A model generated the notes under the pieces. The model saw only the letters and a list, made by a program, of their open reading frames with translations, did no database searches and was not told the origin of the DNA. Of a stretch of 64,000 nt of DNA, positions 2,535 through 43,885 are shown one piece after another (position 1 is the stretch's first letter; every line of letters begins with the position of its first letter). The DNA comes from Bacillus sp. FJAT-22090 (lineage in GTDB: Bacteria; Bacillota; Bacilli; Bacillales_A; Planococcaceae), in assembly GCF_001278755.1 (NCBI RefSeq), contig NZ_CP012601.1:1240001-1304000 (forward strand), in the 5' to 3' direction. Position numbers and translations under genes: made by a program.

Positions 2535-2672
2535 TTCTTCAACTAACCTGCCCCGTTAGTTTTAGTGTAACGTTTCACAATGGATCACCGAGATCTACTT
2601 GATGTTTCTGACAAAAAAATAGACCATCGAAATGATGGTCTTGTTTAACTAAAGCACCCGTTAGTGCAATAA
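2535..2672 (-). repeat. attC-like repeat 1 (long type, complete)
   Basis: Left-most member of the array repeat. On the plus strand the beta half (arms TTCAACTAA and GTTAGTT) is followed by the conserved long spacer (TGTAAC..TTTCACAATGG), a GACCATC/GATGGTC hairpin with an adjacent A-run (a leftward terminator), and the alpha half (arms TTTAACTAA and TTAGT around AGCACCCG). It sits just downstream of the pspC stop in gene orientation. Confidence 0.85.
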
Positions 2673-2684
2673 AGATTGGAAATA

Positions 2685-2867
2685 TTATAGCGATAGTTTG
2701 TCTTTTAAAACCCAAACAAGAAGTAGATATACCCATACAGATACTGAAGCAGTAAAGAAAAATATTATCCTTACAACAAAAGAAGATATGCCAAAAAATT
2801 CAGCTATTCCCCCACACACCCCATATAACACCTTATCAGTTGATGACTTCCTTAACCTTTGTGACAT
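2685..2867 (-). CDS. PspC domain protein
   Basis: A 60-residue protein that is almost entirely a PspC domain: a short basic N-terminus (SQRLRKSSTD), the motif YGVCGGIAEFFGI, then one long transmembrane segment (about residues 28-55). Stand-alone PspC proteins of this size are common in Bacillota and are linked to envelope stress. It is the left-most gene of the cassette-like array, flanked by repeats on both sides. Confidence 0.88.
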   Translation of the reverse strand: MSQRLRKSSTDKVLYGVCGGIAEFFGISSFVVRIIFFFTASVSVWVYLLLVWVLKDKLSL

Positions 2868-2935
2868 TAAAATCCCCCCTCGTTTAACATTCTCTTTTTA
2901 TACGAATGAAATTACAAAAAGTTACAATTCCATTC

Positions 2936-3012
2936 TTCAACTAAACTGCTGCTTTAGTTCAATAAGAAAAAAGGCTTTACTCCTTCTTGAAGTAAAGCAC
3001 CCGTTAGTTTAA
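2936..3012 (-). repeat. attC-like repeat 2 (GTAAAGC hairpin type, complete)
   Basis: Beta half, then a hairpin with arms GCTTTACT and AGTAAAGC, then the alpha half running into AAGTAC. The hairpin right arm overlaps the start of the alpha half. Confidence 0.85.
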
Positions 3013-3034
3013 GTACACTCCTTCACAAGTAGTT

Positions 3035-3448
3035 TTATTCACATTCACTCTCGTTTAATGAGTTATTAAAAATGCTTAGCATGAACGTTAAACCTGCAAC
3101 AATTTCAATCAAATTGGAGCTTAAAAGTTTTATTAACCAAATACTACCTGGTAAAGAAATTGGAAAAGTTGATGATAATGGCATAATTAACGAAAAGAGA
3201 AAACAAGGAATGAATACGGAAATAAGTAAAGGTAGGTTTATTTTAATTGACCATTTTTTTATAAAAATAAGTGATAGATAGAAACCCCATATAAAGAGAA
3301 GAATAAAATTAGTCCAATAAATCATTGAGAAATGGGAGCTATTTTTAATTAGAGTTTTAATATCAAAACTGATGATTGTTAATAAAAATAACCCAATAAC
3401 CCAAAATAATTTCCATATATAAGGTGACCACTTTTTAATGAACAACAC
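3035..3448 (-). CDS. Small multi-pass membrane protein, unknown function
   Basis: A 137-residue protein with four hydrophobic segments (about residues 12-27, 43-62, 71-92 and 108-127) and short basic loops (KKWS appears twice). I recognise no family. It has an AAGGGGG ribosome site and is flanked by array repeats, so it is a single-gene cassette. The small plus-strand frame inside it is a shadow. Confidence 0.7.
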   Translation of the reverse strand: MLFIKKWSPYIWKLFWVIGLFLLTIISFDIKTLIKNSSHFSMIYWTNFILLFIWGFYLSLIFIKKWSIKINLPLLISVFIPCFLFSLIMPLSSTFPISLPGSIWLIKLLSSNLIEIVAGLTFMLSIFNNSLNESECE

Positions 3449-3519
3449 CCCCTTAGCGTTTTATTTTTTATAATTATTAATACGTTTCAAAGCCTAAAGA
3501 GTTCCAAAATAATCCTCAG

Positions 3520-3610
3520 TTCAACTAACCTGCTGCTTTAGTTCAACAAGAAAAAGAGTTGCCTAAGCAACCCCTATGATCTTTACTAAAGCACCCGTTA
3601 GTTGAACAAG
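3520..3610 (-). repeat. attC-like repeat 3 (GTTGC/GCAAC hairpin type, complete)
   Basis: Beta half (GCTGCTTTA centre), hairpin AGTTGCCTAAGCAAC, then the alpha half ending GTTGAACAAG. Confidence 0.85.
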
Positions 3611-3616
3611 ATTTCT

Positions 3617-3862
3617 TTAGTCAGAGATAATGATTACATTTTCTGCAACTTGTTTCTGGTCAGTAGAATTTGGATTTTCAACTAAATCAAAGGATACTTT
3701 TTGACCTTGTTTAAGAAATCTGAATCCATCTCCAAATCTGTCTTTATCAAGCAAAATCGAACTAAAATGAACAAAAACATGATTTCCATCTTCACCGTCA
3801 AGCATAATTCGACCATAACCCTTTTCTTCTTTAAACCATTTAACGATTCCCTCTCGTTTCAT
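3617..3862 (-). CDS. Cold-shock-domain protein (divergent)
   Basis: An 81-residue single cold-shock domain. It starts [15 protein letters not shown], equivalent to the first strand and RNP1 of CspA-type proteins, and has VFVHFSS as RNP2. RNP1 normally reads KGFGFI; here KGYGRI replaces an RNA-stacking aromatic by Arg, so nucleic-acid binding may differ. The protein is longer than CspB (67 residues) because of an extra KDRFGDGF loop. The ribosome site is AAAGGAGG. It lies alone between two array repeats. Confidence 0.87.
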
Positions 3863-3890
3863 ATCTGTTCGACCTCCTTTCCATTTATTT

Positions 3891-3979
3891 ATTAAACTAA
3901 ACTGCCCCGTTAGTTCAATAAGAAAAAGCTACCCTTACTGGCAGCCACTTGCTTAACTAAAGCACCCGTTAGTTGAAAT
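3891..3979 (-). repeat. attC-like repeat 4 (GGCAGCCAC spacer type, complete)
   Basis: Beta half with a CTGCCCC centre, spacer with AAGCTACCCTTACTGGCAGC, then the alpha half. The A-run on the beta side becomes a T-run for leftward transcripts. Confidence 0.83.
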
Positions 3980-4001
3980 AGAAATATTTTATATTTTCAC
4001 T

Positions 4002-4325
4002 TTACTTGAAGCCATTTACCCAAAACCAATAACGACCAGTATTTTTTTTGTTGTTTGCGATAAACATTATAATAGGAATAATACATAATATAAGATATAA
4101 AGCGATAAATGTTGATGTTTGAAGAATTTTCTTCATCTCAACTATTGTCATACAAATCATTAACGTTCCTAAAAATAAATAAGGAAAAATTAACCCTTTC
4201 TGATAAGATTGAAACTTTTCCTCGCCTAAAAGAACTTTAGTTTTTTCAGGTAAAAAGTAGTCCTTTTTCATTAGGTGGCTAAACCCCATAATTAGCACTG
4301 AAATTCCAAAGAATATACTAAGCAT
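4002..4325 (-). CDS. Small membrane protein, unknown; a decayed paralogue lies at 23.3 kb
   Basis: A 107-residue protein with three hydrophobic segments (about 2-18, 46-63 and 71-91) and a short charged loop (LMKKDYFLPEKTKVLLGEEKF) after the first. It ends in the aromatic tail YWFWVNGFK. I do not recognise the family. The DNA of its C-terminal two thirds recurs in decayed form at 23293-23517, again next to an array repeat, so this cassette was probably present twice. Confidence 0.7.
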   Translation of the reverse strand: MLSIFFGISVLIMGFSHLMKKDYFLPEKTKVLLGEEKFQSYQKGLIFPYLFLGTLMICMTIVEMKKILQTSTFIALYLILCIIPIIMFIANNKKNTGRYWFWVNGFK

Positions 4326-4344
4326 TATTTAAATCCCCCCTTCT

Positions 4345-4423
4345 TTTGAATAACCAATAGCGTTAATTCAATAACAAAAAATTCCATTCCTTCTTAAAGT
4401 AAAGCACCCGTTAGTTGAATAAG
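4345..4423 (-). repeat. attC-like repeat 5 (diverged beta half)
   Basis: The beta half is degraded (TTGAATAACCAATAGCGTTAATTCAATAAC) but the hairpin remnant and a good alpha half (TTAGTTGAATAAG) are present. Confidence 0.7.
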
Positions 4424-4431
4424 AAAAGTTA

Positions 4432-5427: not shown

Positions 5428-5507
5428 TAGTGCCGCCCCCAGCTTTTGCATCTATTTTGTTAACCCATACCTTTCCATAGATATTCTGCAATTTGAAATA
5501 AAACCCT

Positions 5508-5590
5508 TCTTCAAATAACCTGCCCCGTTAGTTCAATAAGAATAAAGGCTTTACCCCCTCTTGAAGTAAAGCACCCGTTAGTTGAATAAG
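5508..5590 (-). repeat. attC-like repeat 6 (GTAAAGC hairpin type, complete)
   Basis: Beta half TTCAAATAACCTGCCCCGTT, hairpin GCTTTAC..GTAAAGC, alpha half ending GTTGAATAAG. Confidence 0.85.
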
Positions 5591-6434: not shown

Positions 6435-6467
6435 AATAGCTTCCTCCAATGTAAACCTATTATTTCT

Positions 6468-6498
6468 TGTTCAACTAAACTGCCCCGTTAGTTCAACA
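6468..6498 (-). repeat. attC-like repeat 7 (beta half only)
   Basis: Arms TTCAACTAA and GTTAGTTCAAC around CTGCCCC; no spacer or alpha half follows. The cupin stop lies 15 nt to the right. Confidence 0.75.
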
Positions 6499-6512
6499 GC
6501 ATCATTGAATGA

Positions 6513-6863: not shown

Positions 6864-6940
6864 TCTCATTCTCCTTATCATTTATCTAAACTTCTTTAAT
6901 TTACTAACTTCGACAATAGAACAAAATTACCTTTTCTTTT

Positions 6941-6985
6941 ATTCAACTAACCTGCTGCGTTAGTTTAAGTACATTCTTTCACAAT
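6941..6985 (-). repeat. attC-like repeat 8 (beta half plus the start of a spacer)
   Basis: Beta half (GCTGCGTTAGTTTAAG) followed by ACATTCTTTCACAA, the beginning of the long-type spacer, where the match stops. Its missing alpha half may be the orphan at 10828-10858 (see findings). Confidence 0.78.
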
Positions 6986-7471
6986 CTTTATAGTGATAGT
7001 AACATAATTTTCCAATTTGGGTTCTAAATTTTTCTTTATAGAATTGATAATAAATGATGCAAAACGATTACCTTGCTTTCTATGGTTTCAAGATAACTAG
7101 CAAAGGGTGACATTTTACTTGCAGGATATGTCGAATAAGTCCATTAGTAATGGGTATCAATAATGTAACGAAACTGCTGTTTGTACAGGCTGTTTCATTA
7201 AAAACACCCTAAACGTTGAGTAATCGCAATTAAACGATTCTACACACTTTAACCATTCCCCACTTGAATACACCTGACTAGCCCAACGAGACTAGCTAAC
7301 CACTACTTAAAATAATTTCATTTCATATTTTGTGAATACTACATTTAAAAAGAAAAATGTATGGTAAAACAATCGTTAAAGGTGTTTCAAATATAGAAAC
7401 TTTTTCTCTTTTTTTGAATTTTATTTCTCAACATTTTATTATGAATAACGTACGAAAGAGAGGTGAATCCA
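6986..7471. other. Intergenic region upstream of the iclR-like gene
   Basis: About 480 nt with no supported gene. It presumably holds the promoter of the rightward four-gene operon, but I could not pick a convincing sigma-A promoter. Confidence 0.45.
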
Positions 7472-8203
7472 TTGAAGCAATACGAAGTAGCTACATTGAA
7501 AAAAGGACTTCTAATTTTAGATGCTTTGCGAGAAAAAGATATGACACTTAGTGAAGTTATACAAAAATTTTTATTTAATAAATCAACAGCTTTTCGATTG
7601 TTATATACCCTTGAAAAAATGGGATATGTTAAAAAAATTGATAATTCGTATAGTCTTACTAATAAGATGGGATCTTTATCTACTTCCTTTAACTCAAAAG
7701 CAAATTGGTTATCAGTTCCTCCTTTATATGAGTTGAGTAGAGAAGTTGGAGAAACAGCCTATGTTGGAATCCTTTATGGTACGGAAGTAGTTACTGCACA
7801 AGTTGTTGATGGCACTCATTCTATGAGGGCACACTCGGAGGTTGGTGACCGGGCTTTTGTACATTTAAGCGCTCTAGGAAAAGTCATACTAGCGTTTTTA
7901 GATAAAACCAAACTCGAAGGAATCCTTAAAGAATTAACTTTAGTGCAAAATACCAAAAATACATTTGTAGACTTACACTTATTAAAAGAACACCTAAAGG
8001 TCATTCGTAAGCAAGGATACGCAGTAGATGACGAAGAGACGGAAATTGGCCTACGCTGTATTGCTGCTCCTGTCATCTTTGAGGGAAATATGATTTCAGC
8101 AGTTGCGATAGCTGGTCCAGCCCTTCGGTTGAATAAAAAATTAGATAAAACTTTTAGTAGAAAACTTATTCAATGTAGTTCTCGTATATCGAAAATGCTT
8201 TGA
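7472..8203 (+). CDS. IclR-family transcriptional regulator
   Basis: About 243 residues. An N-terminal winged helix (ATLKKGLLILDALREKDMTL, then KSTAFRLLYTLEKMGYV) is followed by an IclR effector domain with GETAYVGIL, HLSALGKVILAFL and GLRCIAAPVI. The TTG at 7472 is preceded by GAGAGGTG at 6 nt; the GTG at 7463 lies inside that ribosome site. It is the first gene of a rightward run with an MFS exporter, so it probably controls that run. None of the array repeats lies between these genes. Confidence 0.88.
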   Translation: MKQYEVATLKKGLLILDALREKDMTLSEVIQKFLFNKSTAFRLLYTLEKMGYVKKIDNSYSLTNKMGSLSTSFNSKANWLSVPPLYELSREVGETAYVGILYGTEVVTAQVVDGTHSMRAHSEVGDRAFVHLSALGKVILAFLDKTKLEGILKELTLVQNTKNTFVDLHLLKEHLKVIRKQGYAVDDEETEIGLRCIAAPVIFEGNMISAVAIAGPALRLNKKLDKTFSRKLIQCSSRISKML

Positions 8204-8241
8204 TGGAAAACACCCCAAAATTTGAGAAAGGAGAATAAATT

Positions 8242-9420
8242 ATGTCAACAAAAGTATACATTGCATTATTTTCTTTAGCCATTAGTGCTTTTGCCATTGG
8301 AACAACCGAGTTCGTCATTGTAGGCTTACTTCAAACAGTTGCTGATGATCTATCTATTTCGGTGACAAAAGCTGGCGCTTTAATTTCTGGTTATGCAGTA
8401 GCACTAGCTATTGGAACTCCAATTGTAACTGCTATTACAGGGCGTATTCCGAAAAAAGGATTTTTACTAATCTTAATGATAGTTTTCATTTTAGGTAACG
8501 CAATTTCGTCCATTGCAGAAACATATGAAGTATTAATGATTTCACGCGTTATTACTGCTATTGCACATGGTGTATTTTTTGCGATTGCAGCTACAGTCGC
8601 TGCCGATATCGTACCAGAAAACAAAAAAGGAACAGCTATTTCAATTATGTTTACCGGATTAACAGTAGCAACTATAGCTGGTGTTCCAATTGGGACTTAT
8701 ATTGGACAACAGTTTGGTTGGCGCGCTACATTCAGTGCGGTAGCTATACTCGGAATTATTGGGCTAATTGTAAATGTATTTGCGGTTGATAAAGTGAACA
8801 GACAAACGAATCCTCCTACTCTTAAAGATGTAGGGCAACTTGTGAAAAATCAACGAATTCTACTGGCACTATTAATGACCGCATTAGGTTTTGGTGGAAC
8901 TTTTTCATTATTTACCTACCTTGCTCCTATACTGGAAAAAATCAGTGGGTACTCAGCTGGCTCTATTTCATTGCTGCTTTTAGTTTATGGAGTTGCAGTT
9001 GCCATTGGAAATATAGTAGGTGGGAAAATTGCCAATCAGCATCCAGTTAAATCATTACGCTTCGTCTTTTTACTTCAAGGTATCGTACTTTTATTACAAG
9101 TGGTACTACTACCTAGTAAAGGATTAAGTATTTTATCTATTATTTTGCTAGGTTTATTTGCATTTATGATGTCTCCAGGAGTACAAGCGTACATTGTAAC
9201 GCTTGCCGAAAAATTGGTTCCTTCTGCAAAAGATATTGCATCTGCATTAAACATATCAGCCTTTAATATAGGGATCGCTGCAGGATCTACTTTAGGCGGA
9301 TTAGCAGTAGACTATTTAACGTATTTAGATACGGCATGGATTGGTGCAATTATGGTGGCATTCGCATTTCTTCTATCCGTACTGAATTATAAATTAGATA
9401 AGAAACAAAAATTATTTTAA
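8242..9420 (+). CDS. MFS exporter of the arabinose-efflux/drug-resistance type
   Basis: 392 residues and about twelve membrane segments. The N-terminus (AIGTTEFVIVGLL) is typical of the YdhP/AraJ subgroup of MFS exporters, and the second half has LYTYLAPIL-like and GGLAVD motifs. The ribosome site is AAAGGAG. Downstream genes start 15 nt and 16 nt apart, which indicates an operon with the IclR regulator. The substrate is not evident. Confidence 0.88.
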   Translation: MSTKVYIALFSLAISAFAIGTTEFVIVGLLQTVADDLSISVTKAGALISGYAVALAIGTPIVTAITGRIPKKGFLLILMIVFILGNAISSIAETYEVLMISRVITAIAHGVFFAIAATVAADIVPENKKGTAISIMFTGLTVATIAGVPIGTYIGQQFGWRATFSAVAILGIIGLIVNVFAVDKVNRQTNPPTLKDVGQLVKNQRILLALLMTALGFGGTFSLFTYLAPILEKISGYSAGSISLLLLVYGVAVAIGNIVGGKIANQHPVKSLRFVFLLQGIVLLLQVVLLPSKGLSILSIILLGLFAFMMSPGVQAYIVTLAEKLVPSAKDIASALNISAFNIGIAAGSTLGGLAVDYLTYLDTAWIGAIMVAFAFLLSVLNYKLDKKQKLF

Positions 9421-9434
9421 AGGGGAGTTTATTT

Positions 9435-9890
9435 ATGAACTTACAACAACTAGAAAACGTAGAAAAGGAATTACAATTTGAAACATTTACAAATGAAGAT
9501 GCATTAAATCTTGGTACGACATTAATTAATTATGCAAAAGAGAATAACAAAGCAGTAGCTATTCATATTGAGCGTAATCGAGTACCTTTATTCACCCATT
9601 TAATGGATGGTACTTCTGAAGAAAATGTTTTTTGGCTATATCGAAAAAAACGAGTAGTGGATCATTACAACAGAAGCTCACATTATATTGGAGCGAGATT
9701 CGAAAAACAAGGAACGACTCATGGTGAAAGCTCTCTTCTTCAATCAACTGATTATCAAGCTGTAGGCGGATCTTTCCCTATACGTATTAAAGACATAGGC
9801 GTAATTGGAAGTGTAACAGTAGCAGGGCTTTCACCTCAACTTGATCACGATTATGCTGTCGAGGGAGTAAAACGTTTCTTAAAAAAATAA
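9435..9890 (+). CDS. UPF0303/haem-degrading domain protein
   Basis: 151 residues matching the YBR137W/UPF0303 pattern: N-terminal helix LENVEKELQFETFTNEDAL, FTHLMDGTSEENVFWLYRK and the C-terminal GGSFPIRI...GSVTVAGLSPQLDH. The Pfam family is named haem-degrading, but enzymatic haem breakdown is not shown for most members. It lies third in the operon; the ribosome site is AAAGGGGAG. Confidence 0.85.
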   Translation: MNLQQLENVEKELQFETFTNEDALNLGTTLINYAKENNKAVAIHIERNRVPLFTHLMDGTSEENVFWLYRKKRVVDHYNRSSHYIGARFEKQGTTHGESSLLQSTDYQAVGGSFPIRIKDIGVIGSVTVAGLSPQLDHDYAVEGVKRFLKK

Positions 9891-9905
9891 GGAGTTTATA
9901 AACCA

Positions 9906-10205
9906 ATGGTTGTAGAACATGCCATGTTAATCATAAAAAAAGAGTTAGTAGAGGAATTTATAAAAACAATTAATGAAGCATTCCCTATTTTAAGCAGTTC
10001 TGAGGGGTACTTATCTCACAAACTGCTTCGAAATAAAGAGAATCCAACTCAATTTATACTCGTTGTCAATTGGAGAAATTTAGAAGATCATCTTGATGGC
10101 TTTGTAGGGAGTGCTAAATTCAAGAAATGGGACTCGATACTCAGTCGATTCTATGATAGTTATCCAAATGTCTTGCACTATACAGAAGTAACATACTGGG
10201 TATAA
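9906..10205 (+). CDS. Antibiotic biosynthesis monooxygenase (ABM) domain protein
   Basis: A 99-residue ferredoxin-like ABM-fold protein: hydrophobic first strand (VVEHAMLIIKK), helix EFIKTINEAFPIL, SEGYLSHKLLRN, the strand FILVVNWRNLEDHLDGF, and a closing YTEVTYWV. Related small proteins include monooxygenases and haem-degrading IsdG types. Last gene of the operon, followed by a strong terminator. Confidence 0.82.
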   Translation: MVVEHAMLIIKKELVEEFIKTINEAFPILSSSEGYLSHKLLRNKENPTQFILVVNWRNLEDHLDGFVGSAKFKKWDSILSRFYDSYPNVLHYTEVTYWV

Positions 10206-11400: not shown

Positions 11401-11450
11401 AAAAAAATCCTTTCTAACGCTTAATTTCTTTTTAGCAACTTTATATCCAT

Positions 11451-11587
11451 CTTCAATTATCCTGCACCGTTAGTTTAAGTGTAACATTTCACAATGGTTC
11501 GCCAAAATCTACTTGATGTTTTGGGCATAAAAATAGACCATCGAAATGATGGTCTTATTTAATTAAAGCACCCGTTATTTGAGTAAC
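11451..11587 (-). repeat. attC-like repeat 10 (long type, complete)
   Basis: Beta half (GCACCGTTAG), long spacer with GTAACATTTCACAATGG, GACCATC/GATGGTC hairpin, then a slightly diverged alpha half (AATTAAAGCACCCGTTATTT). Confidence 0.84.
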
Positions 11588-12890: not shown

Positions 12891-12926
12891 TCTTATTAAA
12901 CTAACCTGCACCGTTAGTTGAACAAG
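12891..12926 (-). repeat. attC-like repeat 12 (single hybrid half)
   Basis: Beta left arm and centre (ACTAACCTGCACCG) joined to an alpha-like right arm (TTAGTTGAACAAG); spacer absent. Confidence 0.72.
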
Positions 12927-13217: not shown

Positions 13218-13265
13218 TTTTATTGCTCCTTTATGTTTTATTTTTATTCTATTTCTCATTATTCT

Positions 13266-13357
13266 TATTGAACTAACCTGCTTCTTTAGTTCAATAAAAA
13301 AAGAGCTGCCAAAGCAACTCATTGATCTTTAAACTAAAGCACCCGTTAGCTCAAAAA
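13266..13357 (-). repeat. attC-like repeat 13 (GCAAC hairpin type, complete)
   Basis: Beta half with CTTCTTTAG centre, hairpin GAGCTGCCAAAGCAACTC, alpha half ending GTTAGCTC. A weak extra alpha-like copy follows at 13387-13410. Confidence 0.8.
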
Positions 13358-13577
13358 GAAAATAGAGCTGTATAATTTAGCTATTTATTTCACTAAAGCA
13401 CTCAATTGTCGAAAATCGATATCACTATAATTGCTTTGAGTATCAATGGGGTCATTTTCAGTTGATATACAAACGTTCTTTAACTAACGCCACCTTTTAC
13501 TAATCAAAATGTTTAACTGCCCTCAAGTGTTTAAACTCTTTTTGGTAAAAGTTAAAAAAGTTGTCAAAACAATTTTT

Positions 13578-14939: not shown

Positions 14940-15067
14940 CTCTAATCCTCCATTTCCAATACTTCAACAATTAATATTCTCTTCTAACATAATAGATAAT
15001 ATACAATTAAAATTGAGGTAATTTAAGACAATAAATTCGAGACAATGGATTTCATTAGCTCCTCCAG

Positions 15068-15160
15068 TTATTGAACTAACCTGCTGCGTTAGTTCAATAA
15101 GAAAAAGCTACCAATAAAGGCAGCCACTTGCTTAACTAAAGCACCCGTTAGTTGAATAAC
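15068..15160 (-). repeat. attC-like repeat 14 (GGCAGCCAC spacer type, complete)
   Basis: Beta half with CTGCTGCG centre, spacer AAGCTACCAATAAAGGCAGC, alpha half ending GTTGAATAAC. Confidence 0.85.
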
Positions 15161-15692: not shown

Positions 15693-15775
15693 CTTATTAA
15701 ACAATCCTGCTCTTTAGTTCAATAAAAAAATGCTTTACTCCTTCTTGAAGTAAAGCACCCGTTAGTTGAATAAGA
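15693..15775 (-). repeat. attC-like repeat 15 (GTAAAGC hairpin type, complete)
   Basis: Beta half (ATCCTGCTCTTTAG), hairpin GCTTTACT..AGTAAAGC, alpha half. The alpha half supplies the last codons and the stop of the next gene. Confidence 0.85.
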
Positions 15776-16187: not shown

Positions 16188-16231
16188 TTGTATACACCTA
16201 CTTTTACGTATAATTATAAAACAATATTACT

Positions 16232-16362
16232 TGTTCAACTAACCTGCTGCGTTAGTTTAGGTGTAACATTTCACAATGGATCGCCGAAACCTACTTGATG
16301 TATTGGACATAAAAATAGACCATCCAAGTGATGGTCTTGTTTAACTAAAGCACCCATTTGAA
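16232..16362 (-). repeat. attC-like repeat 16 (long type, alpha half damaged)
   Basis: Beta half, long spacer (GTAACATTTCACAATGG), GACCATC/GATGGTC hairpin, then TTTAACTAAAGCACCC where the right arm TTAGTT is lost. Confidence 0.8.
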
Positions 16363-16385
16363 AAGCAATTTCAATTAAACTAGCA

Positions 16386-16803: not shown

Positions 16804-16843
16804 AAAGTACTCCCCCAAAAAAAATAATTGTTTTAAATGCTCT

Positions 16844-16934
16844 TCTTCAACTAAACTGCACCGTTAGTTCAATAAGAAAAAAGAGTTGCCTAAGCAACCC
16901 ATGATCTTTAACTAAAGCACCCGTTAGTTTAAGT
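16844..16934 (-). repeat. attC-like repeat 18 (GCAAC hairpin type, complete)
   Basis: Beta half with TGCACCG centre, hairpin GAGTTGCCTAAGCAACCC, alpha half continuing into TTTAAGTG. Confidence 0.85.
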
Positions 16935-17055
16935 GAAATAATTCACAAACTTGTTTTATTACTATCTTATAAAAAGTACTACCAAAATCGAATAGAATAC
17001 AAGAACCTTTGTGAACCTTGTTTGGGTTATAAGTAAATCACTTTAAAATAGTATC

Positions 17056-18285: not shown

Positions 18286-18356
18286 GTCACTACTCCTTAA
18301 ATTATTTTCCTAAATGCCTCATCTGAATGTTATTCGTAACACATATACTGAATTCC

Positions 18357-18402
18357 TTCTTAAACTAAACTGCCCCGTTAGTTTAAGTGTAATATTTCAC
18401 GA
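18357..18402 (-). repeat. attC-like repeat 19 (beta half plus spacer start)
   Basis: TTAAACTAAACTGCCCCG, TTAGTTTAAG, then TGTAATATTTCAC, where the long-type spacer breaks off. The Lon-like gene follows on its right. Confidence 0.76.
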
Positions 18403-18449: not shown

Positions 18450-19223
18450 TTAATATTTTTCGTTCAGGTAATTAATTTGTTCAACTGCTTCATCTACATG
18501 GTTTACATCAAAAATTTGGATATTTGTATCAAGTTCTTTTTGAAAAGTCTCTGCTTCTTTGCTATTTTCACTTGGGATGATCATGTATTGAAAACCTGAT
18601 TTTTCTGCGATTTGTATTTTTTCTTTGATGCCTCCCACAGCTGTTACTTCTCCTTTTCCATTTATGGCTCCAGTAACAGCTATTGGTAAGTGATTTTGAA
18701 AGGTTCCATTTATCATCAATTCAGTTAGTAATATCGCAAGCCCAGCACTATTTCCTATCGCTTGATCGTAATTAAAGTAGTCGGTAAGTCTTTGCTCTTC
18801 TTTCCCGAAATATTCTCTTAAATCCTCTCTCATCTTTTCTTTTGGAGATTTTTCATTTAGCCCCAACCAACCCAACAGAGTCCTATTTTTGTTGTTATAA
18901 CTCATTGGATTAGTTAATTTGATAATGGTTAAGACATCTTTATGCTCTTTTTTTAATTGCTCCTGAACCGCCTGTTTACTTTCCATATTATTTAATGTTT
19001 CAATTTCAATACTGATAATAAAAATTCCTGATCGTTCTACTGTCTCCCTTGGCTCAAAATATATATCTGCTATATGTGATTGTGGAGCGAACCCTATAAG
19101 GGGCAGCTCATAGCAAAATAACAGCAAGAGGATGGATAGCGAGATAGTCATTTTTCGTCTTACCGTACGTTTCTTTCCGAATACCACGATAGAGATGGAC
19201 AAGATCAGTAAGCTAATAAGCAA
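18450..19223 (-). CDS. Membrane-anchored Lon-type (S16) protease-like protein, copy 1
   Basis: 257 residues as drawn: N-terminal hydrophobic segments, then a Lon-like proteolytic domain. The Ser box GNSAGLAILL and the Lys box VTAVGGIKEKI keep both catalytic residues of the Ser-Lys dyad, and the AVTGAINGKGEV strand between them is typical. No ATPase domain. Coding similarity to copy 2 (29000-29863) continues upstream in frame to about 19349 (FYLLFLFLYLQNVIDE), but only ATA or ATT codons sit where copy 2 has its ATG, so the start is either an internal TTG (19223) or has decayed. Confidence 0.74.
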   Translation of the reverse strand: MLISLLILSISIVVFGKKRTVRRKMTISLSILLLLFCYELPLIGFAPQSHIADIYFEPRETVERSGIFIISIEIETLNNMESKQAVQEQLKKEHKDVLTIIKLTNPMSYNNKNRTLLGWLGLNEKSPKEKMREDLREYFGKEEQRLTDYFNYDQAIGNSAGLAILLTELMINGTFQNHLPIAVTGAINGKGEVTAVGGIKEKIQIAEKSGFQYMIIPSENSKEAETFQKELDTNIQIFDVNHVDEAVEQINYLNEKY

Positions 19224-19829: not shown

Positions 19830-19892
19830 AAATATTCCCCCCTCGGACTATATACGAATATCAGCATGAATAGATTCCAAATAAGTATTTCC

Positions 19893-19976
19893 TTCTTAAA
19901 CTAAACTGCCGCTTTAGTTCAATAAGAAAAAGGCTTTACCCCTTATTGAAGTAAAGCACGACGTTAATTGAAAAAG
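19893..19976 (-). repeat. attC-like repeat 21 (GTAAAGC hairpin type, complete)
   Basis: Beta half with TGCCGCTT centre, GCTTTAC/GTAAAGC hairpin, and an alpha half altered to GCACGACGTTAATTGAA. Confidence 0.78.
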
Positions 19977-20394: not shown

Positions 20395-20460
20395 TTGTAC
20401 ACTTCCTTTTTAATTTTAGTATATGCCTGTATAAGAGTTCGAAAACCACTTAACACGATT

Positions 20461-20537
20461 TATTGAATCAAACTGCTTGCTTTACTTCAAAAAGGCTTTA
20501 CTCCTTTTTGAAGTAAAGCACCTGTTAGTTGAATAAG
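20461..20537 (-). repeat. attC-like repeat 22 (GTAAAGC hairpin type, beta half diverged)
   Basis: Beta half reduced to TTGAATCAAACTGCTTGC, intact GCTTTACTC..AAGTAAAGC hairpin, alpha half CACCTGTTAGTTGAATAAG. Confidence 0.76.
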
Positions 20538-22481: not shown

Positions 22482-22560
22482 TTTACGACATCCTCCCTTT
22501 TTTAAGTTTCGATAATATCCAAATCCCGCCCTCTGATTAACAACTGACTATACATACCTC

Positions 22561-22643
22561 TTCTTCAACTAAACTGCTGCGTTAGTTCAATAAGAAAAAA
22601 GCTTTACTCCTTCTTGAAGTAAAGCACCCGTTAGCTTAATAGG
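22561..22643 (-). repeat. attC-like repeat 25 (GTAAAGC hairpin type, complete)
   Basis: Beta half with TGCTGCG centre, GCTTTACTCC/AGTAAAGC hairpin, alpha half ending TTAGCTTAATAGG. Confidence 0.84.
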
Positions 22644-23139: not shown

Positions 23140-23189
23140 ATTCTACACCCCTTCTCATATATCAATTCGATAATCTTGGAGGATAATCC

Positions 23190-23274
23190 TTCTTCAACTA
23201 AACTGCTTCGTTAGTTCAATAAGATAAAAGGCTTTACTCCTTCTTGAAGTAAAGCACCCGTTAGTTGAATAAGA
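23190..23274 (-). repeat. attC-like repeat 26 (GTAAAGC hairpin type, complete)
   Basis: Beta half with TGCTTCG centre, GCTTTACTCC/AGTAAAGC hairpin, perfect alpha half ending TTAGTTGAATAAG. Confidence 0.86.
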
Positions 23275-25443: not shown

Positions 25444-25540
25444 CTTCTTCAACTAAACTGCCGCGTTAGTTCAATAAGAAAAAAAAGTTGCTTACGCAAC
25501 CCATGATCTTCAACTAAAGCACCCGTTACTTTAAGTACAT
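25444..25540 (-). repeat. attC-like repeat 27 (GCAAC hairpin type, complete)
   Basis: Beta half with TGCCGCG centre, hairpin GTTGCTTACGCAAC, alpha half with right arm altered to TTACTTTAAG. Confidence 0.83.
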
Positions 25541-27740: not shown

Positions 27741-27777
27741 TTCTTCTTCAACTAAAGCACCCGTTAGTTGAATAAGA
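27741..27777 (-). repeat. attC-like repeat 29 (alpha half only)
   Basis: TTCTTCAACTAA, AGCACCCG, TTAGTTGAATAAG: left arm of beta type, centre and right arm of alpha type. Confidence 0.78.
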
Positions 27778-28012: not shown

Positions 28013-28047
28013 TTTTTACCTCACTTAATTAAATTCTTATGTCGTAC

Positions 28048-28135
28048 ACTTAAGTAACTGCACCGTTAGTTCAATTAGAAAAAGCCACCCTTACAGCAGC
28101 CACTTTTAACTAAAGTACCCGTTAGCTTAATAAGA
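28048..28135 (-). repeat. attC-like repeat 30 (GGCAGCCAC spacer type, complete, diverged)
   Basis: Beta half TTAAGTAACTGCACCG, TTAGTTCAATTAG; spacer AAAGCCACCCTTACAGCAGC; alpha half TTTAACTAAAGTACCC, GTTAGCTTAATAAG. Confidence 0.78.
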
Positions 28136-28832: not shown

Positions 28833-28936
28833 TTCTTGAACTAACCTGCTTCTTTATTGAAAAAAAGCTTTACTCCTTATTGACCATAAAAATTCAATTC
28901 CTTGTTCAACTAAACTGCTGCGTTAGTTCAATAAGT
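28833..28936 (-). repeat. attC-like repeat 31 (truncated repeat followed by a beta half)
   Basis: Beta half with TGCTTCTTTA (28833-28860), the first part of a GTAAAGC hairpin (GCTTTACTCC) that breaks off, then a second beta half (28902-28936, TGCTGCG centre). Confidence 0.72.
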
Positions 28937-28999: not shown

Positions 29000-29863
29000 T
29001 TAATATTTTTCATTTAAGTCATTAATTATTTGAAGAGCCTCATCTACATTTGATACATCAAAAATTTCCACGTTTGCCTTTAGTTCATTTTGGACATTCG
29101 CTACTTCACCAGCATTTTCACTAGGAATAATCATAAATGGAATGCCAGATCTTTCAGTGATTTGTATCTTTTCTTTCATATACTCAACATGAAAGACATC
29201 TCCCTTGTCATTAATTGCTCCAGTAACAGCAATTGGTATTTCATTTTTAAAATTGCCTCGTTTGTATAATCCATTCAGCACTAAGTTAAGCCCTGCACTA
29301 TCACCACTAATTTGTTCTCGATTAAAAAAATTATTGAGCCATTCATCTTCTTGTCCTAAATATTTTTTCACATTATCTTCACTCTCTTCAATTAATGCTT
29401 TTTGAAACCAAGATAATATTTGTCTGTTTTTATATCCATAAATCTTACGATTATTAAGTTTAGTAATAGTTAATACATCACCATTTCTTGTTGTTAAAAT
29501 TTCCTTCAGTTCATGTTTGTTCCTTATGGTTATTTCCTGAACCGGCAACAAAAATATTCCTGAATCTTCTATCGCTTCTGTTGGTTCTACATACAAGTTG
29601 ATCAAATGTGATGGTGTTGTATATCCTAAAAGTAAAAACTCATAGCTAAATAGAAGAATTAAAATGATTAAGGCGATTGAAATTTTCCCTTTGCACGCAT
29701 TTTTTTTTCGCAATACGATCAATCTAAGTAACATAGTTATTAAGCTGATAAACAATATACATAGAAACATCCATTCATTAATAACATCTTGAAGATAAAA
29801 TAATAGAACTACAAGATAGAAAAGAATAGATAAAATACCCGTAACGATACTTGATTTATTCAT
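29000..29863 (-). CDS. Membrane-anchored Lon-type (S16) protease-like protein, copy 2
   Basis: 287 residues: two N-terminal membrane segments (about 8-26 and 31-51), a third around 63-82, then a Lon proteolytic-like domain. The Ser box SGDSAGLNLVL and the Lys box YMKEKIQITERSG keep the Ser-Lys dyad, with AVTGAINDKGDV between. It is about half identical by eye to copy 1 at 18450. The ATG has GGGGGCATGG upstream. Like copy 1, its stop faces a beta half rather than an alpha half. Confidence 0.82.
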   Translation of the reverse strand: MNKSSIVTGILSILFYLVVLLFYLQDVINEWMFLCILFISLITMLLRLIVLRKKNACKGKISIALIILILLFSYEFLLLGYTTPSHLINLYVEPTEAIEDSGIFLLPVQEITIRNKHELKEILTTRNGDVLTITKLNNRKIYGYKNRQILSWFQKALIEESEDNVKKYLGQEDEWLNNFFNREQISGDSAGLNLVLNGLYKRGNFKNEIPIAVTGAINDKGDVFHVEYMKEKIQITERSGIPFMIIPSENAGEVANVQNELKANVEIFDVSNVDEALQIINDLNEKY

Positions 29864-29900: not shown

Positions 29901-30096
29901 TTCTCCAACTAATCTGCTGTTTTACTTTAATACGTTTGCAATGAATAGAAGTTCCAATATTAAATAAATTTTCCATAAGAAATTACAAAAAATTCATTTT
30001 GCTTATTGAACTAAACTGCCCCGTTAGTTCAATAAGGAAAATGAGCTGTCTGAACAGCTCAACAATTTTTGCTAAAGCACCATTTATTTTAAATAC
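29901..30096 (-). repeat. attC-like repeat 32 (compound)
   Basis: Beta variant with TACTTTAATACGTTTG (29901-29940), AT-rich gap, regular beta half (30004-30035), hairpin GAGCTGTCTGAACAGCTC, then a worn alpha half (GCTAAAGCACCATTTATTT). Confidence 0.72.
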
Positions 30097-30389: not shown

Positions 30390-30434
30390 AGCTAATAACC
30401 TCCATTATTATTTCTGAATTTTCTAAGGCGTTGA

Positions 30435-30566
30435 TTTATTAACCTGCCGCTTAAGTTCAATAAGAAAATAGATTTTACTCCTTCTTGAAGTAAAGCACCC
30501 GTTAGTTGAATAAGAAAAAAGAATTGCTTATGGCAACTCATGAGCTTAAACTAAACATCTATTAAT
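30435..30566 (-). repeat. attC-like repeat 33 (complete, plus an extra half)
   Basis: Beta half with TGCCGCTT, GTAAAGC hairpin, good alpha half ending TTAGTTGAATAAG, then a further AAAGAATTGCTTATGGCAAC hairpin and a worn alpha half (AAACTAAACATCTATTAAT). Confidence 0.78.
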
Positions 30567-31240: not shown

Positions 31241-31286
31241 TTTTCTTATATTAACTACTTCGATGTCCTTCCAAATTCACCTTCTT

Positions 31287-31380
31287 GTTGAACTAAACTG
31301 CCCCGTTAGTTGAACAAGAAAAAAGAGCCGTCTATGCAGCTCATTGATCTTTTACTAAACGCACCCGTTAGTCCAAGAAG
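31287..31380 (-). repeat. attC-like repeat 35 (GCAGC hairpin type, complete)
   Basis: Beta half with CTGCCCCG and right arm TTAGTTGAACAAG, hairpin GAGCCGTCTATGCAGCTC, alpha half with one extra base (ACTAAACGCACCCGTTAGT). Confidence 0.82.
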
Positions 31381-31865: not shown

Positions 31866-31923
31866 AATGACCCCCTTTTTTCTACTATAATTGTATCATT
31901 CTAACTTTTATAAAGGTGCTTTC

Positions 31924-32062
31924 ATCTTACACTAAACTGCTGCGTTAGTTTAAGTGTAACATTTCACGATGTATCGCCGAAATCTTCTTGATGTTTTGAA
32001 CATAAAAATAGACCATCAAATTGATGGTCATGTTTAACTAAAGCACCCGTTAGTTCAATAAG
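31924..32062 (-). repeat. attC-like repeat 36 (long type, complete)
   Basis: Beta half with TGCTGCG, long spacer with GTAACATTTCACGATG, GACCATC/GATGGTC hairpin, perfect alpha half ending TTAGTTCAATAAG. Confidence 0.85.
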
Positions 32063-33108: not shown

Positions 33109-33158
33109 GTTCTGCCTCCTCATATGAGACTATATTCAATGAAATAGAACAAAAATCC

Positions 33159-33250
33159 TTGTTCAACTAAACTGCCCCGTTAGTTGAACAAGAAAAAAAG
33201 AGCTGCCTTGCAACTCAGTGATCTTCAACCAAAGCACCCGTTAGTAAGCA
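33159..33250 (-). repeat. attC-like repeat 37 (GCAAC hairpin type, complete)
   Basis: Beta half with CTGCCCCG and right arm TTAGTTGAACAAG, hairpin GAGCTGCCTTGCAACTC, alpha half cut short (GCACCCGTTAGTAAG). Confidence 0.83.
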
Positions 33251-33292
33251 GAAAAGGGTCATATCCTGTTAATGTATCACTATTACTTTAGT

Positions 33293-33520: not shown

Positions 33521-33600
33521 TTTACCCTCCATTATATAAATTTACTCTTACTATTCTATTAATGCTTTATTCACCATACTATACCTGAATTATGATACCT

Positions 33601-33737
33601 TCTTTCGCTAACCTGTTGCGTTAGTTTAAGTGTAACATTTCACAATTGATTTCTGAGATCTACTTTATGTTTCGGATAAAAAATAGACCATCCAAATGAT
33701 GGTCTTGTTTAACTAAAGCACCCGTTAGTTGAATAAC
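33601..33737 (-). repeat. attC-like repeat 38 (long type, complete)
   Basis: Beta half with TGTTGCG, long spacer (GTAACATTTCACAATTG), GACCATC/GATGGTC hairpin, perfect alpha half ending GTTGAATAAC. Confidence 0.85.
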
Positions 33738-33742: not shown

Positions 33743-34075
33743 TTATTTGTGATCCTCAATAGTTTCAATATCACTAAGAAAAATTAAACCATTTCTTTTT
33801 ATCGTGTATCTTACGAAGTATGTCTTATCTTTCTGAATTAAATTCATTACCATTGGTCCCCTAACAATTACTTTAATCTCTTCTTGATGTCCCACTGGGG
33901 CATTGGGGTTAAATCCCTTTATCCATGCTTCATTGTTATCGTTAGAATACCCTTTTTCAGTGACAGTAAAATCAGTTACAGTTAACACAGACGAAAAAGA
34001 ATTATAAATTAAAAAAACAATCAAAAAGGCAACAGAAATTGTTATAGCCGACAATAAAATTCTTTTACTCTTCAT
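33743..34075 (-). CDS. Membrane-anchored small protein
   Basis: 110 residues. One N-terminal transmembrane anchor (LLSAITISVAFLIVFLIY) and an extracellular beta-rich domain (VTDFTVTEKGYS, then EEIKVIVRGPMVMNLIQ). GAAGG precedes the ATG. No family recognised. Confidence 0.7.
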   Translation of the reverse strand: MKSKRILLSAITISVAFLIVFLIYNSFSSVLTVTDFTVTEKGYSNDNNEAWIKGFNPNAPVGHQEEIKVIVRGPMVMNLIQKDKTYFVRYTIKRNGLIFLSDIETIEDHK

Positions 34076-34089
34076 AAAATTCCCCTTCC

Positions 34090-34223
34090 TTCACTATCCT
34101 GCACCGTTAGTTTAAGTGTAACATTTCACAATGGATTTCTGAGATCTACTTGAAGTTTTGGATAAATAAATAGACCATCTAAATGATGGTCTTGTTTCAC
34201 TAAAGCACCCGTTAGTTGAACAA
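34090..34223 (-). repeat. attC-like repeat 39 (long type, complete)
   Basis: Beta half TTCACTATCCTGCACCG, long spacer (GTAACATTTCACAATGG), GACCATC/GATGGTC hairpin, alpha half ending GTTGAAC. Confidence 0.84.
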
Positions 34224-34322
34224 AGGAATAAAACTAACATTTCCCTTAGTTATATAAGTTCCATCAAAAAAGGCAAAAGTCCATACAGGATTAGCGTTCG
34301 TAGAGTTAATTATATGATGCAA
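34212..34322 (-). pseudogene. Gene-end relic terminating in the repeat
   Basis: An open stretch reads HHIINSTNANPVWTFAFF, DGTYITKGNVSF and IPLFN, then TAA inside the alpha half. The composition is protein-like (Trp, Gly-Thr-Tyr turn) but there is no start with a ribosome site. It looks like the tail of a lost secreted cassette protein. Confidence 0.42.
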
Positions 34323-35410: not shown

Positions 35411-35596
35411 CCAGACTGAAAGTAAAGCACTCCTTGAGTTCAATAATTTACATATATTAACTTATTCAACTCGATTGCAAAAAAACCTTCTTATTCAACT
35501 AAACTTCCCCTTTAGTTCAATAAGAAAAAGAACTGCTTAAGCAACCCATGATCTCCAACTAAAGCACCCGTTAGATTAAGTACATTATTTCACAAA
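35411..35596 (-). repeat. attC-like repeat 40 (compound, left part duplicated at 40.6 kb)
   Basis: An alpha-like half (GTAAAGCACTCCTTGAG, TTCAATAA) at 35419-35447, a spacer, then a beta half (TCCCCTTTAG), hairpin AACTGCTTAAGCAAC and alpha half to 35596. Positions 35411-35515 nearly repeat 40602-40706. Confidence 0.75.
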
Positions 35597-36369: not shown

Positions 36370-36379
36370 AGTATATATC

Positions 36380-36472
36380 TTCTTCAACAAAACTGCTGCG
36401 TTAGTTCAATAAGAAAAAGCTACCCTTACAGGCAGCCACTTACTTAACTAAAGCACCCGTTAGTTGAAGAAG
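36380..36472 (-). repeat. attC-like repeat 41 (GGCAGCCAC spacer type, complete)
   Basis: Beta half TTCAACAAAACTGCTGCG, spacer AAGCTACCCTTACAGGCAGC, perfect alpha half ending GTTGAAGAAG. Confidence 0.84.
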
Positions 36473-36975: not shown

Positions 36976-37019
36976 AATTAATACCACTCCAAAAGATTAA
37001 GCAGACAGCAGTTCAAATT

Positions 37020-37112
37020 TATTGAACTAACCTGCTGCTTTAGTTGAAGAAGAAAAAAGAGTTGCCTAAGCAACTCATTCATCTTTAACTAAAGCCCCCG
37101 TTGCTTAATAAC
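37020..37112 (-). repeat. attC-like repeat 42 (GCAAC hairpin type, complete)
   Basis: Beta half with TGCTGCTTTAG, hairpin GAGTTGCCTAAGCAACTC, alpha half AAGCCCCCGTTGCTTAATAAC (slightly worn). Confidence 0.82.
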
Positions 37113-37185
37113 TATTTCATTTTGATTTTTATAAAAAAGTTTGATCATTTTCTGCCTATATTATTTCATTCTTTGGTCAAACACC

Positions 37186-40555: not shown

Positions 40556-40716
40556 TCTTACATTAACCTGCCCCGTTAGTTCAAGAGAAAAGTGCCACCC
40601 CCCAGACTTAAAGTAAAGTACTCCTTGAGTTCAATAATTTACATATATTAACTTATTCAATTCGATTGCAAAAAAACCTTCTTTTTCAACTAAACTGCAC
40701 CGTTAGTTTAAGAAGC
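40556..40716 (-). repeat. attC-like repeat 44 (compound: beta, alpha-like, beta)
   Basis: Beta half (40556-40588), a CCACC spacer, an alpha-like half with GTAAAGTACTCCTTGAG (40611-40640), an AT-rich linker, and a second beta half (40684-40716, TGCACCG). 40602-40706 nearly equals 35411-35515. Confidence 0.76.
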
Positions 40717-42376: not shown

Positions 42377-42521
42377 AAGAATTGTCCCCTTACTTTTTGT
42401 AAAATCCCTCACACTATATACAACGTAACATATACACTTTTTTTCTCACATTTAATAAAATTTGTTTTCAAAATTAATCATAAAGCCGTAATACCTTTCC
42501 CTTTGTTTCTTAAACTACAAC

Positions 42522-42548
42522 AAAAAAACCTGCCAAAGACAGGTCTTT
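42522..42548 (-). terminator. Hairpin terminator upstream of the sigma gene
   Basis: ACCTGCC/GACAGGT hairpin; leftward T-run of seven. It would end transcripts from the DUF4190 gene before the sigma operon. Confidence 0.72.
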
Positions 42549-42589
42549 TCGGTTTCAAAAAAATTAAATTATTGGTGTTCATTAGAAAA

Positions 42590-42628
42590 TTCTTATTCAA
42601 CTAAACTGCCCCGTTAGTTGAATAAGAA
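42590..42628 (-). repeat. attC-like repeat 45 (perfectly symmetric single site)
   Basis: Arms TTCTTATTCAACTAA and TTAGTTGAATAAGAA are perfect 15-nt complements around ACTGCCCCG. Left arm and centre are of beta type, right arm of alpha type. Confidence 0.85.
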
Positions 42629-42637
42629 CCCGAGATA

Positions 42638-42904
42638 CTAAACTTCATTTGTTAGAAAATAGAAAGCGATAATACCCACTACTGCAAAGATTTGAATCGT
42701 AATTCCCACTACACTACAAATTAAACCAGAAGTAGCTAATCCACTGCCCCCTTGATTTGTTATTACAAGTTCTTTTGCCGCTTTTCTTGAAACTACAACT
42801 CCTATACCACCAAGAATTAAACCGACAAATGGTATTAGGATTGAAAGAATACCAAGAGTTAAAGAAATTACCGAATTACTGTTTGTATGAGTTTTTTCAA
42901 CCAT
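42638..42904 (-). CDS. DUF4190 membrane protein, first gene after the integrase
   Basis: 88 residues. Two hydrophobic segments (about 12-37 and 57-83) separated by VSRKAAKELVITNQGGSGLATSGL; this is the DUF4190 pattern (GI..GP..IG.IL..AGK). GGGGGAAAT precedes the ATG. If the array is integron-like, this is the cassette nearest to the integrase and thus the most recently acquired. Confidence 0.82.
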   Translation of the reverse strand: MVEKTHTNSNSVISLTLGILSILIPFVGLILGGIGVVVSRKAAKELVITNQGGSGLATSGLICSVVGITIQIFAVVGIIAFYFLTNEV

Positions 42905-42943
42905 TTACATTTCCCCCTTATATATTCTCTCAATTCACATTAC

Positions 42944-42970
42944 CTATTCAACTGCTTCGTTATTAAAATC
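42944..42970 (-). repeat. attC-like repeat 46 (degenerate; attI-like position)
   Basis: ATTCAACTGCTTCGTTATTAA lies between the first cassette and the integrase start, where an integron carries attI. It shares ATTCAAC and the TGCTTCGTTA centre with the beta halves, but the right arm is lost. Confidence 0.6.
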
Positions 42971-43045
42971 AATTAATCATTATGTCTATAATTCTATTAA
43001 GTTGGCAATAATCCCTTTAAGAGTACTATTTTAGGGGGAATGGAA

Positions 43046-43885
43046 TTGAAACTGTCAAAAGCATGGTCTTCCTTTGAAGCAGATAAACGTATAGAAGGCT
43101 TTTCGAAGCAAACGTTGAAAGCCTACCAGTTACAGTCTTTGCTACTAATTGGTTATTTTAAGGATGTTGAGATGGAATCACTGGATACAATTCAACTGAA
43201 GGAATATCTTGCTATATCGGGCAAGCATTTAAAACCAGCCAGTCTTGCACATCGAATCCGCTTTATAAAATCGTTTTTTCGTTGGTCTCATGAAGAAGGA
43301 TACCTGAGTAAGAATCCAACTTCCAAGATTAAAGAGCCAAAAGTAGGGAAGCGGATACCCAAGTATTTAACCGAACGGGAGATTGAACACCTTCGTGAAT
43401 CCTGTCATTCCCCAATGGAAAAAGCGATTTTTGAATTTATGTTTTCTACCGGTTGTAGAATTGGAGAAATAGTTGCGTTAGAAAAGAACCATATCAATTG
43501 GTCCAACCAGTCTGCAATCGTTAGAGGAAAAGGTGATAAGGAAAGGGAAGTATATTTTAATACACGTTGCGACATATGGCTTAAACGCTATATGGAATGC
43601 CGTAATGACCATAATCCTGCTATCTTTGTAACTGCAAGGCAGCCACATAAAATGAGTGTCGCCCAAATGCGATACATCATCAAGCGGATCTCCAATCGTG
43701 CTGAAATCAATAAAGAGATTCATCCACACCAACTTAGGCACAGCTACGCAACTCATTTGTTGAATAACGGGGCTCCTATTGAAGTCATACAAAGTCTTAT
43801 GGGGCATGAGAAAAGTGAAACCACCAAGATCTACGCTCAATTAAGCGGGAGGCTAAGGAAAGAGTATTATCAAAAGTACTTTTAA
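43046..43885 (+). CDS. Tyrosine recombinase, candidate integrase of the cassette array
   Basis: About 280 residues, XerC/D-sized. SAM-like N-domain (about 5-85), then the catalytic domain with Arg in TGCRIGEIVAL, Lys in GKGDKEREV, HPHQLRHSYATHLL (H-x-x-R), His in SLMGHEKSETT and Tyr in KIYAQL. The extra helix insert of classical IntI proteins is absent. The TTG at 43046 has AGGGGGA 7 nt upstream; the ATG at 43040 is too close. It is transcribed away from the array, the integron plan. A chromosomal Xer role is less likely because it is one of five such genes here and sits at the array end. Confidence 0.86.
   Translation: MKLSKAWSSFEADKRIEGFSKQTLKAYQLQSLLLIGYFKDVEMESLDTIQLKEYLAISGKHLKPASLAHRIRFIKSFFRWSHEEGYLSKNPTSKIKEPKVGKRIPKYLTEREIEHLRESCHSPMEKAIFEFMFSTGCRIGEIVALEKNHINWSNQSAIVRGKGDKEREVYFNTRCDIWLKRYMECRNDHNPAIFVTARQPHKMSVAQMRYIIKRISNRAEINKEIHPHQLRHSYATHLLNNGAPIEVIQSLMGHEKSETTKIYAQLSGRLRKEYYQKYF

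Follow-up and report, generated by a model that had tools for sequence, protein, structure and literature searches.

The 64-kb window analysed here (positions 1240001–1304000 of the 4.21-Mb one-contig genome of Bacillus sp. FJAT-22090, whose nearest named relatives are Psychrobacillus) contains, between window positions 2534 and 42966, an array of mainly leftward genes with a structured repeat between them, and a divergent tyrosine recombinase gene at its right end. Comparison with related genomes showed the architecture of the array, a conserved attI-like border beside the recombinase, the exchange of cassettes with edges at half-sites, and the decoupling of the repeat's terminator from the genes. 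Because the swaps have their edges at half-sites, the system works like an integron; because the enzyme is XerA-like, the two halves of the repeat do not co-vary and the terminator-centred repeat does not, as a rule, move along with its gene, it is not an IntI-family integron by the features tested. It is probable, in our judgement, that this is a system for capturing and shuffling gene cassettes, integron-like in its working and built from its own parts.

Composite repeats and the site beside the recombinase

The repeat is made of two half-sites, in each of which two 7-nt boxes in inverted orientation enclose a spacer of 6 or 7 nt. In gene direction the complete repeat, or composite, reads CTTNTTCAACTAACGGGTGCTTTAGTTNAAG, a hairpin segment and CTTATTGAACTAAMGNNGCAGKTTAGTTNAANAAG, and measures 79–140 nt including flanks; the B half (CTTNTTC AACTAAC GGGTGC TTTAGTT NAAG) comes first and the A half (CTTATTG AACTAAM GNNGCAG KTTAGTT NAANAAG) follows the hairpin segment, with the two half cores 30–130 nt apart, mostly 30–50 or 80–90 nt. 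A loose half-site pattern (up to 9 mismatches) gave 84 merged plus-strand matches in the window, some of them doubtful, compared with 0–2 in five first-order Markov sequences. Twenty-eight composites were counted, all leftward among the covariance-model matches listed (minus strand, E ≤ 0.01): 25 had been paired by pattern, and three of four picked by eye were confirmed by the covariance model. The model was built from 22 of the 28, the other six, which form a 140-nt class, being left aside; some composites also matched the plus strand at a lower score because they are near-palindromic. An Rfam scan of the window returned five weak matches, none of which overlapped a listed site.

An earlier, sequence-only reading of this stretch had described about 28 complete repeats and further partial copies, in agreement with the count of composites and with the lone A and B halves found besides them. 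Its description of the repeats was confirmed and is to be amended in that a site-free rightward block of four open reading frames (ORFs; 7463–10205) and several other rightward ORFs also lie inside the array. The divergent recombinase was found as described, with its ORF at 43040–43885 (plus strand). The cargo is as unrelated as had been supposed. Among 20 array ORFs, 11 matched Pfam (cold-shock, APH-type phosphotransferase, alpha/beta hydrolase, cupin, two GNAT, UDPGP, two Lon_C, ApbA and DUF2268) and nine had no match.

In the integron plan, as in Vibrio-type superintegrons, the integrase lies divergently beside a fixed site and a one-way cassette array. This plan, which the same reading had proposed, was recovered here. 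At 29 of 32 loci, judged by eye, conservation on the recombinase side runs from the start codon as far as ACTAAC(G) and gives way there to differing cassettes, the other three (L003, L031, L037) being truncated or without the conserved border. A scripted check of 27 loci, some of them from one genome and with the mismatch limit near the recombinase relaxed to 6 of 21, located a site within 140 nt of the recombinase in 25 (all but L051 and L096). All 25 were lone A halves and none a composite, and most lay 69–80 nt from the start codon (about 75 bp). The second site from the recombinase was an A half in nine cases, a B half in six and a composite in eight; among later, internal sites 46 of 98 were composites. 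From these alignments we infer that the lone half-site upstream of the recombinase is the equivalent of attI and would be used as the insertion site.

In the window this putative attI lies at 42944–42966 (minus strand), about 80 bp from the integrase start; its right arm seems about 5 nt short, GCAG being followed directly by TTGAATAG. The stretch between it and the integrase (42967–43039) is conserved among clade I loci, where clade I denotes at least 77% identity to the window recombinase, fragments included, and clade II 52–68%, the labels having been set by hand among the recombinase matches listed. Overlapping divergent promoter-like hexamers occur there, including a Pc-like pair (TTGCCA-18-CATAAT, 43008–42979) that faces the array; the six promoter-like sites are not clearly above the 4.8 in shuffles, and the second hexamer is not conserved in relatives. 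At seven clade II loci (L079, L080, L081, L084, L090, L106 and L116; recombinases 63–66% identical) the conserved side is flipped at the same AACTAAC|G border. Composites at clade II loci, where present, are on the recombinase's strand with the recombinase at the far end, an inverted arrangement. The 140-nt composites (e.g., 33599–33737) have TTGTGAAATGTTACACTTAAACTAAC at their end, similar to the arm of attI on the integrase side, and are possibly captured attI remnants. Rightward of the integrase (59771–62075) lie weak half-sites, perhaps the remains of another array.

Exchange of cassettes at half-sites

Flank comparisons among 446 non-redundant composites identified 47 pairs that share the upstream flank only, 39 that share the downstream flank only and six that share both, sharing being defined as at least 85% identity reaching the site (187, 212 and eight pairs before the edge filter). 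When lone sites were included the upstream-only pairs numbered 536, with 43 matching a composite to a lone site and 430 of the A/A type; most of the latter are taken to represent the recombinase side of attI. A single half-site appears to be the basic site of exchange.

One cassette, with a gene for a 110-aa protein (33743–34075, minus strand), was found in four contexts in three genomes, namely the window array, a second array of the same genome, a Psychrobacillus-group species (G139) and Solibacillus palustris. In the window its 5′ boundary is the 140-nt composite at 34085–34224 and its 3′ boundary the one at 33599–33737 (both minus strand). The copies are 97–99% identical over 292 nt, and the identity starts at NN|GCAGGATAGTG and stops after AACTAACGGGTGCTTTA, both breaks being inside half-sites. 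The deoB-xerD housekeeping region of G139 and of S. palustris is 79% and 69% identical, respectively, to that of the source genome.

Further evidence came from a near-identical pair of the Paenisporosarcina group, G075 (Paenisporosarcina sp. HGH0030) and G076, compared over regions chosen for holding sites, record ends and matches shorter than 180 bp or below 95% being excluded. In this pair 27 of 37 block ends had a half-site no more than 25 nt away in one genome or the other, against a background of 6.5% and 7.3% of positions and a chance level of up to about 14%, because nearness was counted in either genome. In one swap other ORFs replace a gene that has a lone A half on one side and a composite on the other, and both junctions fall in half-sites; the segment present in G076 was found elsewhere in G075 at 99.5% identity. 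Among the family search matches listed, G076 had no recombinase match.

The recombinase, the terminator and the fold of the composite

The recombinase (281 aa) matched the Pfam family Phage_integrase (PF00589, 5.5e-39) and barely passed the XerA-type model NF040815 (222.4 bits, cut-off 220). With the integron integrase model TIGR02249 it scored 91.9 bits, far under the cut-off of 265; a sample of 299 Bacillota genomes held a single match over that cut-off (375 bits). The IntI-specific insert is absent from the window recombinase and from one clade II protein when compared with a single IntI (L171, from another Bacillota genome), so that a dedicated Xer-like integrase without this insert, as had been anticipated, is what was found. 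An alignment of 31 proteins revealed that R138, H228 and Y263 are invariant and R231 and H254 nearly so, which we read against the RHRHY catalytic motif. The best solved relatives by sequence are the archaeal Xer 4a8e, XerD 1a0p and XerA 5hxy, and the match of IntI4 covers just 69 residues. In a tree of 25 proteins the group of the recombinase sits on a long branch, and its place among Xer and IntI is unsure. An AlphaFold2 model was poor (predicted local distance difference test 70.5, predicted template-modelling score 0.45); its Foldseek matches, the best of which was XerA 5hxy (template-modelling score 0.29), were given no weight. The genome contains two more close copies (95%), one of them without its N-terminus, and a fragment.

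The dif sites of XerC/XerD have inverted arms round a 6–7 nt spacer, and pdif modules of Acinetobacter plasmids are bounded by inversely oriented dif-like sites. Since the half-sites here have the same plan and the enzyme is Xer-like, host XerC/XerD acting at such sites, as on pdif modules and with no dedicated enzyme, might be proposed. We regard this as very improbable: all 28 window composites share one orientation, matching best on the minus strand, whereas pdif modules alternate, and the recombinase both tracks the sites and is only 30–34% identical to three other Xer-like proteins of the genome, two of which we take from their neighbours to be XerC and XerD.

The centre of the composite resembles an intrinsic terminator. 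T follows the hairpin on the coding strand, 458 of 505 composites having TTTT and 107 AAAA, and terminator-like sites exceeded those in shuffles about threefold (27 vs. 9.1 and 26 vs. 7.7). Sharing of spacer, flank and hairpin was scored in 440 of the 446 composites, all 47 and 39 pairs included. The flank before box 1 was common in 44 of the 47 pairs with the same upstream gene and the hairpin in 11; where it was the downstream gene that agreed (39 pairs), 29 had the flank after box 4 in common and six the hairpin. One gene end has a composite behind it at one place and a lone A half at another, with identity over 292 nt, and the gene end preceding the 140-nt composite at 16230–16369 (minus strand) recurs elsewhere in the genome (100% over 292 nt) with another neighbour. 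Seven B-B-A chains included two clear cases of tandem terminator modules, identical to each other in Viridibacillus (L063) and different at window 13264–13417 (minus strand), where a composite found by pattern carries the second module. The hairpin, and with it the terminator, is in most cases not carried along with its gene. Longer leaders would be expected after composites because these leave room for promoters of the genes' own; the leader lengths showed no difference (median 79.5 nt after composites, from 358 usable sites of 505, and 77 nt after lone sites, from 265 of 384).

These data bear on whether the array could be a true integron, its composites being attC sites recombined as folded single strands by an unusual integrase. 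The composite does have two simple sites and a length of 79–140 nt, the fixed site has the position of attI, and the occurrence of A halves alone there would suit an exchange of attI with attC through the outer half. The boxes AACTAAC and KTTAGTT agree with the integron core-box consensus RYYYAAC / GTTRRRY at six of seven letters. Many single composites fold like attC and some do not; such folds arise because each half is palindromic. RNAalifold found no structure in the raw repeat alignment, and the structure of the covariance model was therefore written by hand from single folds. Pairing between the halves equalled that of shuffled pairs, both for 22 copies (77.2% vs. 77.1%) and for 505 composites (outer 0.709 vs. 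0.708, inner 0.691 vs. 0.696), in tests that address co-variation and not activity. This absence of co-variation argues against single-strand recombination, as do, against a true integron, the hairpin common to so few same-upstream-gene pairs, the low IntI score and the missing insert. We consider a true integron possible and rather doubtful, and the identification with an ordinary integron, with the composite belonging to the gene upstream of it, was not supported.

For the cassette system that we favour, the following scheme may be drawn from the sequence comparisons. The XerA-like recombinase, the probable catalyst of cassette exchange, would recognise simple sites of the form AACTAAM, 6- or 7-nt spacer, KTTAGTT, and swap double-stranded DNA within the spacer. 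A cassette would consist of one gene and one simple site; it would enter at the attI equivalent about 75 bp upstream of the recombinase and then stand in the one-way array. An intrinsic terminator is enclosed by two simple sites, 30–130 nt apart, at roughly half of the junctions inside the array; it may insulate neighbouring cassettes and could itself be exchanged, left behind or sometimes placed in tandem. Exchange between A and B halves would account for lone sites, gene-only cassettes and tandem modules.

Sites in the window, spread among genomes and meaning

The remaining sites of the window are all on the minus strand. Composites supported by the pattern, the covariance model and the terminator scan lie at 37018–37113 (with terminator hairpin), 36379–36472, 35490–35583 and 16842–16936. 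Those supported by pattern and covariance model lie at 33158–33253, 30430–30514, 30002–30096, 25444–25538, 23189–23273, 22560–22643, 20459–20537, 15067–15160, 5506–5590, 3888–3981, 3516–3610 and 2932–3016, with degenerate copies at 28044–28134 and 4341–4423 and members of the 140-nt class at 31923–32062, 11448–11587 and 2534–2673, the last of the array. Three were picked by eye and confirmed by the model (31284–31380, 19892–19976 and 15693–15774). By pattern, lone A halves lie at 42592–42626, after the first cassette (gene 42638–42904), and at 40681–40715, 28901–28935, 18356–18390, 12892–12926, 6938–6972 and 6466–6500, and a lone B half at 27743–27776.

Two genes with a Lon_C domain (18450–19223 and 29000–29863) occupy separate cassettes and share a 180-nt stretch of 73% identity. 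Outside the array, three successive rightward tyrosine recombinase ORFs (509, 376 and 317 aa; 50514–54132) all match the recombinase query and presumably resemble a recombinase-in-trio element. Directly past the integrase, a fragment similar to transfer-messenger RNA (44301–44424, minus strand; 24.3 bits, under the gathering score of 47) may be the scar of an island that had integrated into ssrA.

The source genome holds at least 145 covariance-model matches at E ≤ 0.01, a lower bound because 150 of 4721 candidates were scored; most fall at 785–1194 kb (plus strand), 1242–1278 kb (minus, the window), 2676–2707 kb (minus) and 3443–3496 kb (both strands). Of 261 genomes of the family, 91 gave a match to the recombinase at E ≤ 1e-40 and at least 101 have composites at E ≤ 1e-5, up to 16 candidates being scored per genome. 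Clade I genes or fragments occur in at least 41 of the 261, and all 41 carry at least three composites; 11 of 34 clade II genomes have any composite. The named contigs include those of Psychrobacillus, Lysinibacillus, Sporosarcina, Paenisporosarcina, Solibacillus, Viridibacillus, Metabacillus, Litchfieldia, Domibacillus, Neobacillus, Peribacillus and others, and the recombinase was likewise found in other Bacillales genera (e.g., Metabacillus, Neobacillus and Peribacillus). Two plasmids also carry a copy of the recombinase, pSP10-266k of Sporosarcina psychrophila (94%) and pSHB26 of Peribacillus simplex (63%), and near each there is at least one composite. On an S. psychrophila plasmid (L167), the array side of the clade I recombinase carries genes for a metallopeptidase, an IS110 transposase and merR/merA.

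Several observations weigh against a recombinase-driven cassette system. Ten of the 37 block ends in the Paenisporosarcina pair have no half-site close by. The two variable letters of the spacer (NN) matched in 10 of 47 upstream-sharing and 12 of 39 downstream-sharing pairs, with a background of 22%; it tracks neither neighbour, which a one-crossover model does not predict. Free movement of terminator modules as cassettes would lead one to expect some of them at attI, where none stood in 25 loci, and more tandem pairs than were seen. The attI copy of the window looks damaged, and the locus may therefore no longer be active. Of the 220 genomes that lack a clade I gene, 31 have at least three composites, and 12 of the 261 genomes have at least 10 composites and neither a clade I nor a clade II recombinase at E ≤ 1e-40, a search that would miss short fragments. 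Such clusters resemble the integrase-less attC clusters (CALIN) of integrons. Repeats without the recombinase had been named beforehand as evidence against the integron-like reading; they do formally occur in these 12 genomes, and every one of the 41 clade I genomes carries composites.

The same 12 genomes, and the terminator at the centre of the repeat, would suit mobile or amplified terminator elements like repetitive extragenic palindromes or bacterial interspersed mosaic elements (REP/BIME), with genes shuffled by homologous recombination and the recombinase a bystander. Such an origin seems unlikely to us, in that the edges of exchange fall inside a site of about 20 nt between otherwise unrelated flanks, terminator-free lone sites are exchanged as well, and the fixed lone site by the enzyme (25 of 27 loci) and the clade I association (41 of 41) speak for a dedicated recombinase. 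Cassette-by-cassette exchange at the repeats and occurrence across Bacillales, both put forward in the sequence-only reading, were borne out, the former by the block ends and the four-context cassette, the latter by the covariance-model and recombinase searches, which matched many genera.

Like sedentary chromosomal integrons, the cassette system has a divergent integrase at a fixed site. Its arrays are likewise long and run one way, hold mostly single genes unrelated to each other, exchange them cassette by cassette and occur in integrase-less genomes too, and its elements have two simple sites and a length like that of attC. Unlike them, it has an integrase that is not IntI and lacks the IntI insert, shows no co-variation of the attC kind and has an element often not carried by the gene, a central terminator, several integrase copies per genome, plasmid copies and Bacillales hosts. 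It resembles XerA/Xer and dif in enzyme family, by score and solved relatives, and in the inverted arms round a 6–7 nt spacer, and differs in that the enzymes form a separate group of uncertain place, lie by gene arrays and occur in several copies. With pdif modules it shares short Xer-type sites that bound exchangeable genes; its single site direction, dedicated recombinase with an attI-like site and chromosome-scale arrays set it apart.

According to the IntegronFinder 2.0 paper (PMC9024848), integrons are common in Gamma- and Betaproteobacteria but very scarce among Firmicutes, where its 2022 survey reports a single complete integron, in Limnochorda pilosa, besides a few CALIN; The Natural History of Integrons gives a list of phyla with integrons (PMC8618304). 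Among the open-licence PMC papers listed in the searches made, no title or abstract opening described such a Bacillales system.

The system is a new integron-like variant that is widespread in Bacillales. Whether it represents a second, independent origin of the integron lifestyle, with a XerA-like enzyme, double-stranded simple sites and terminators as separate mini-modules between cassettes, we judge to be evenly poised. Near-identical cassettes are common to different genera, and one genome has at least 145 sites. If the proposed scheme is true, these Gram-positive bacteria would possess a gene-capture platform of their own, which would explain a large accessory gene pool, and the system would offer an independent test of which features of integrons are essential.

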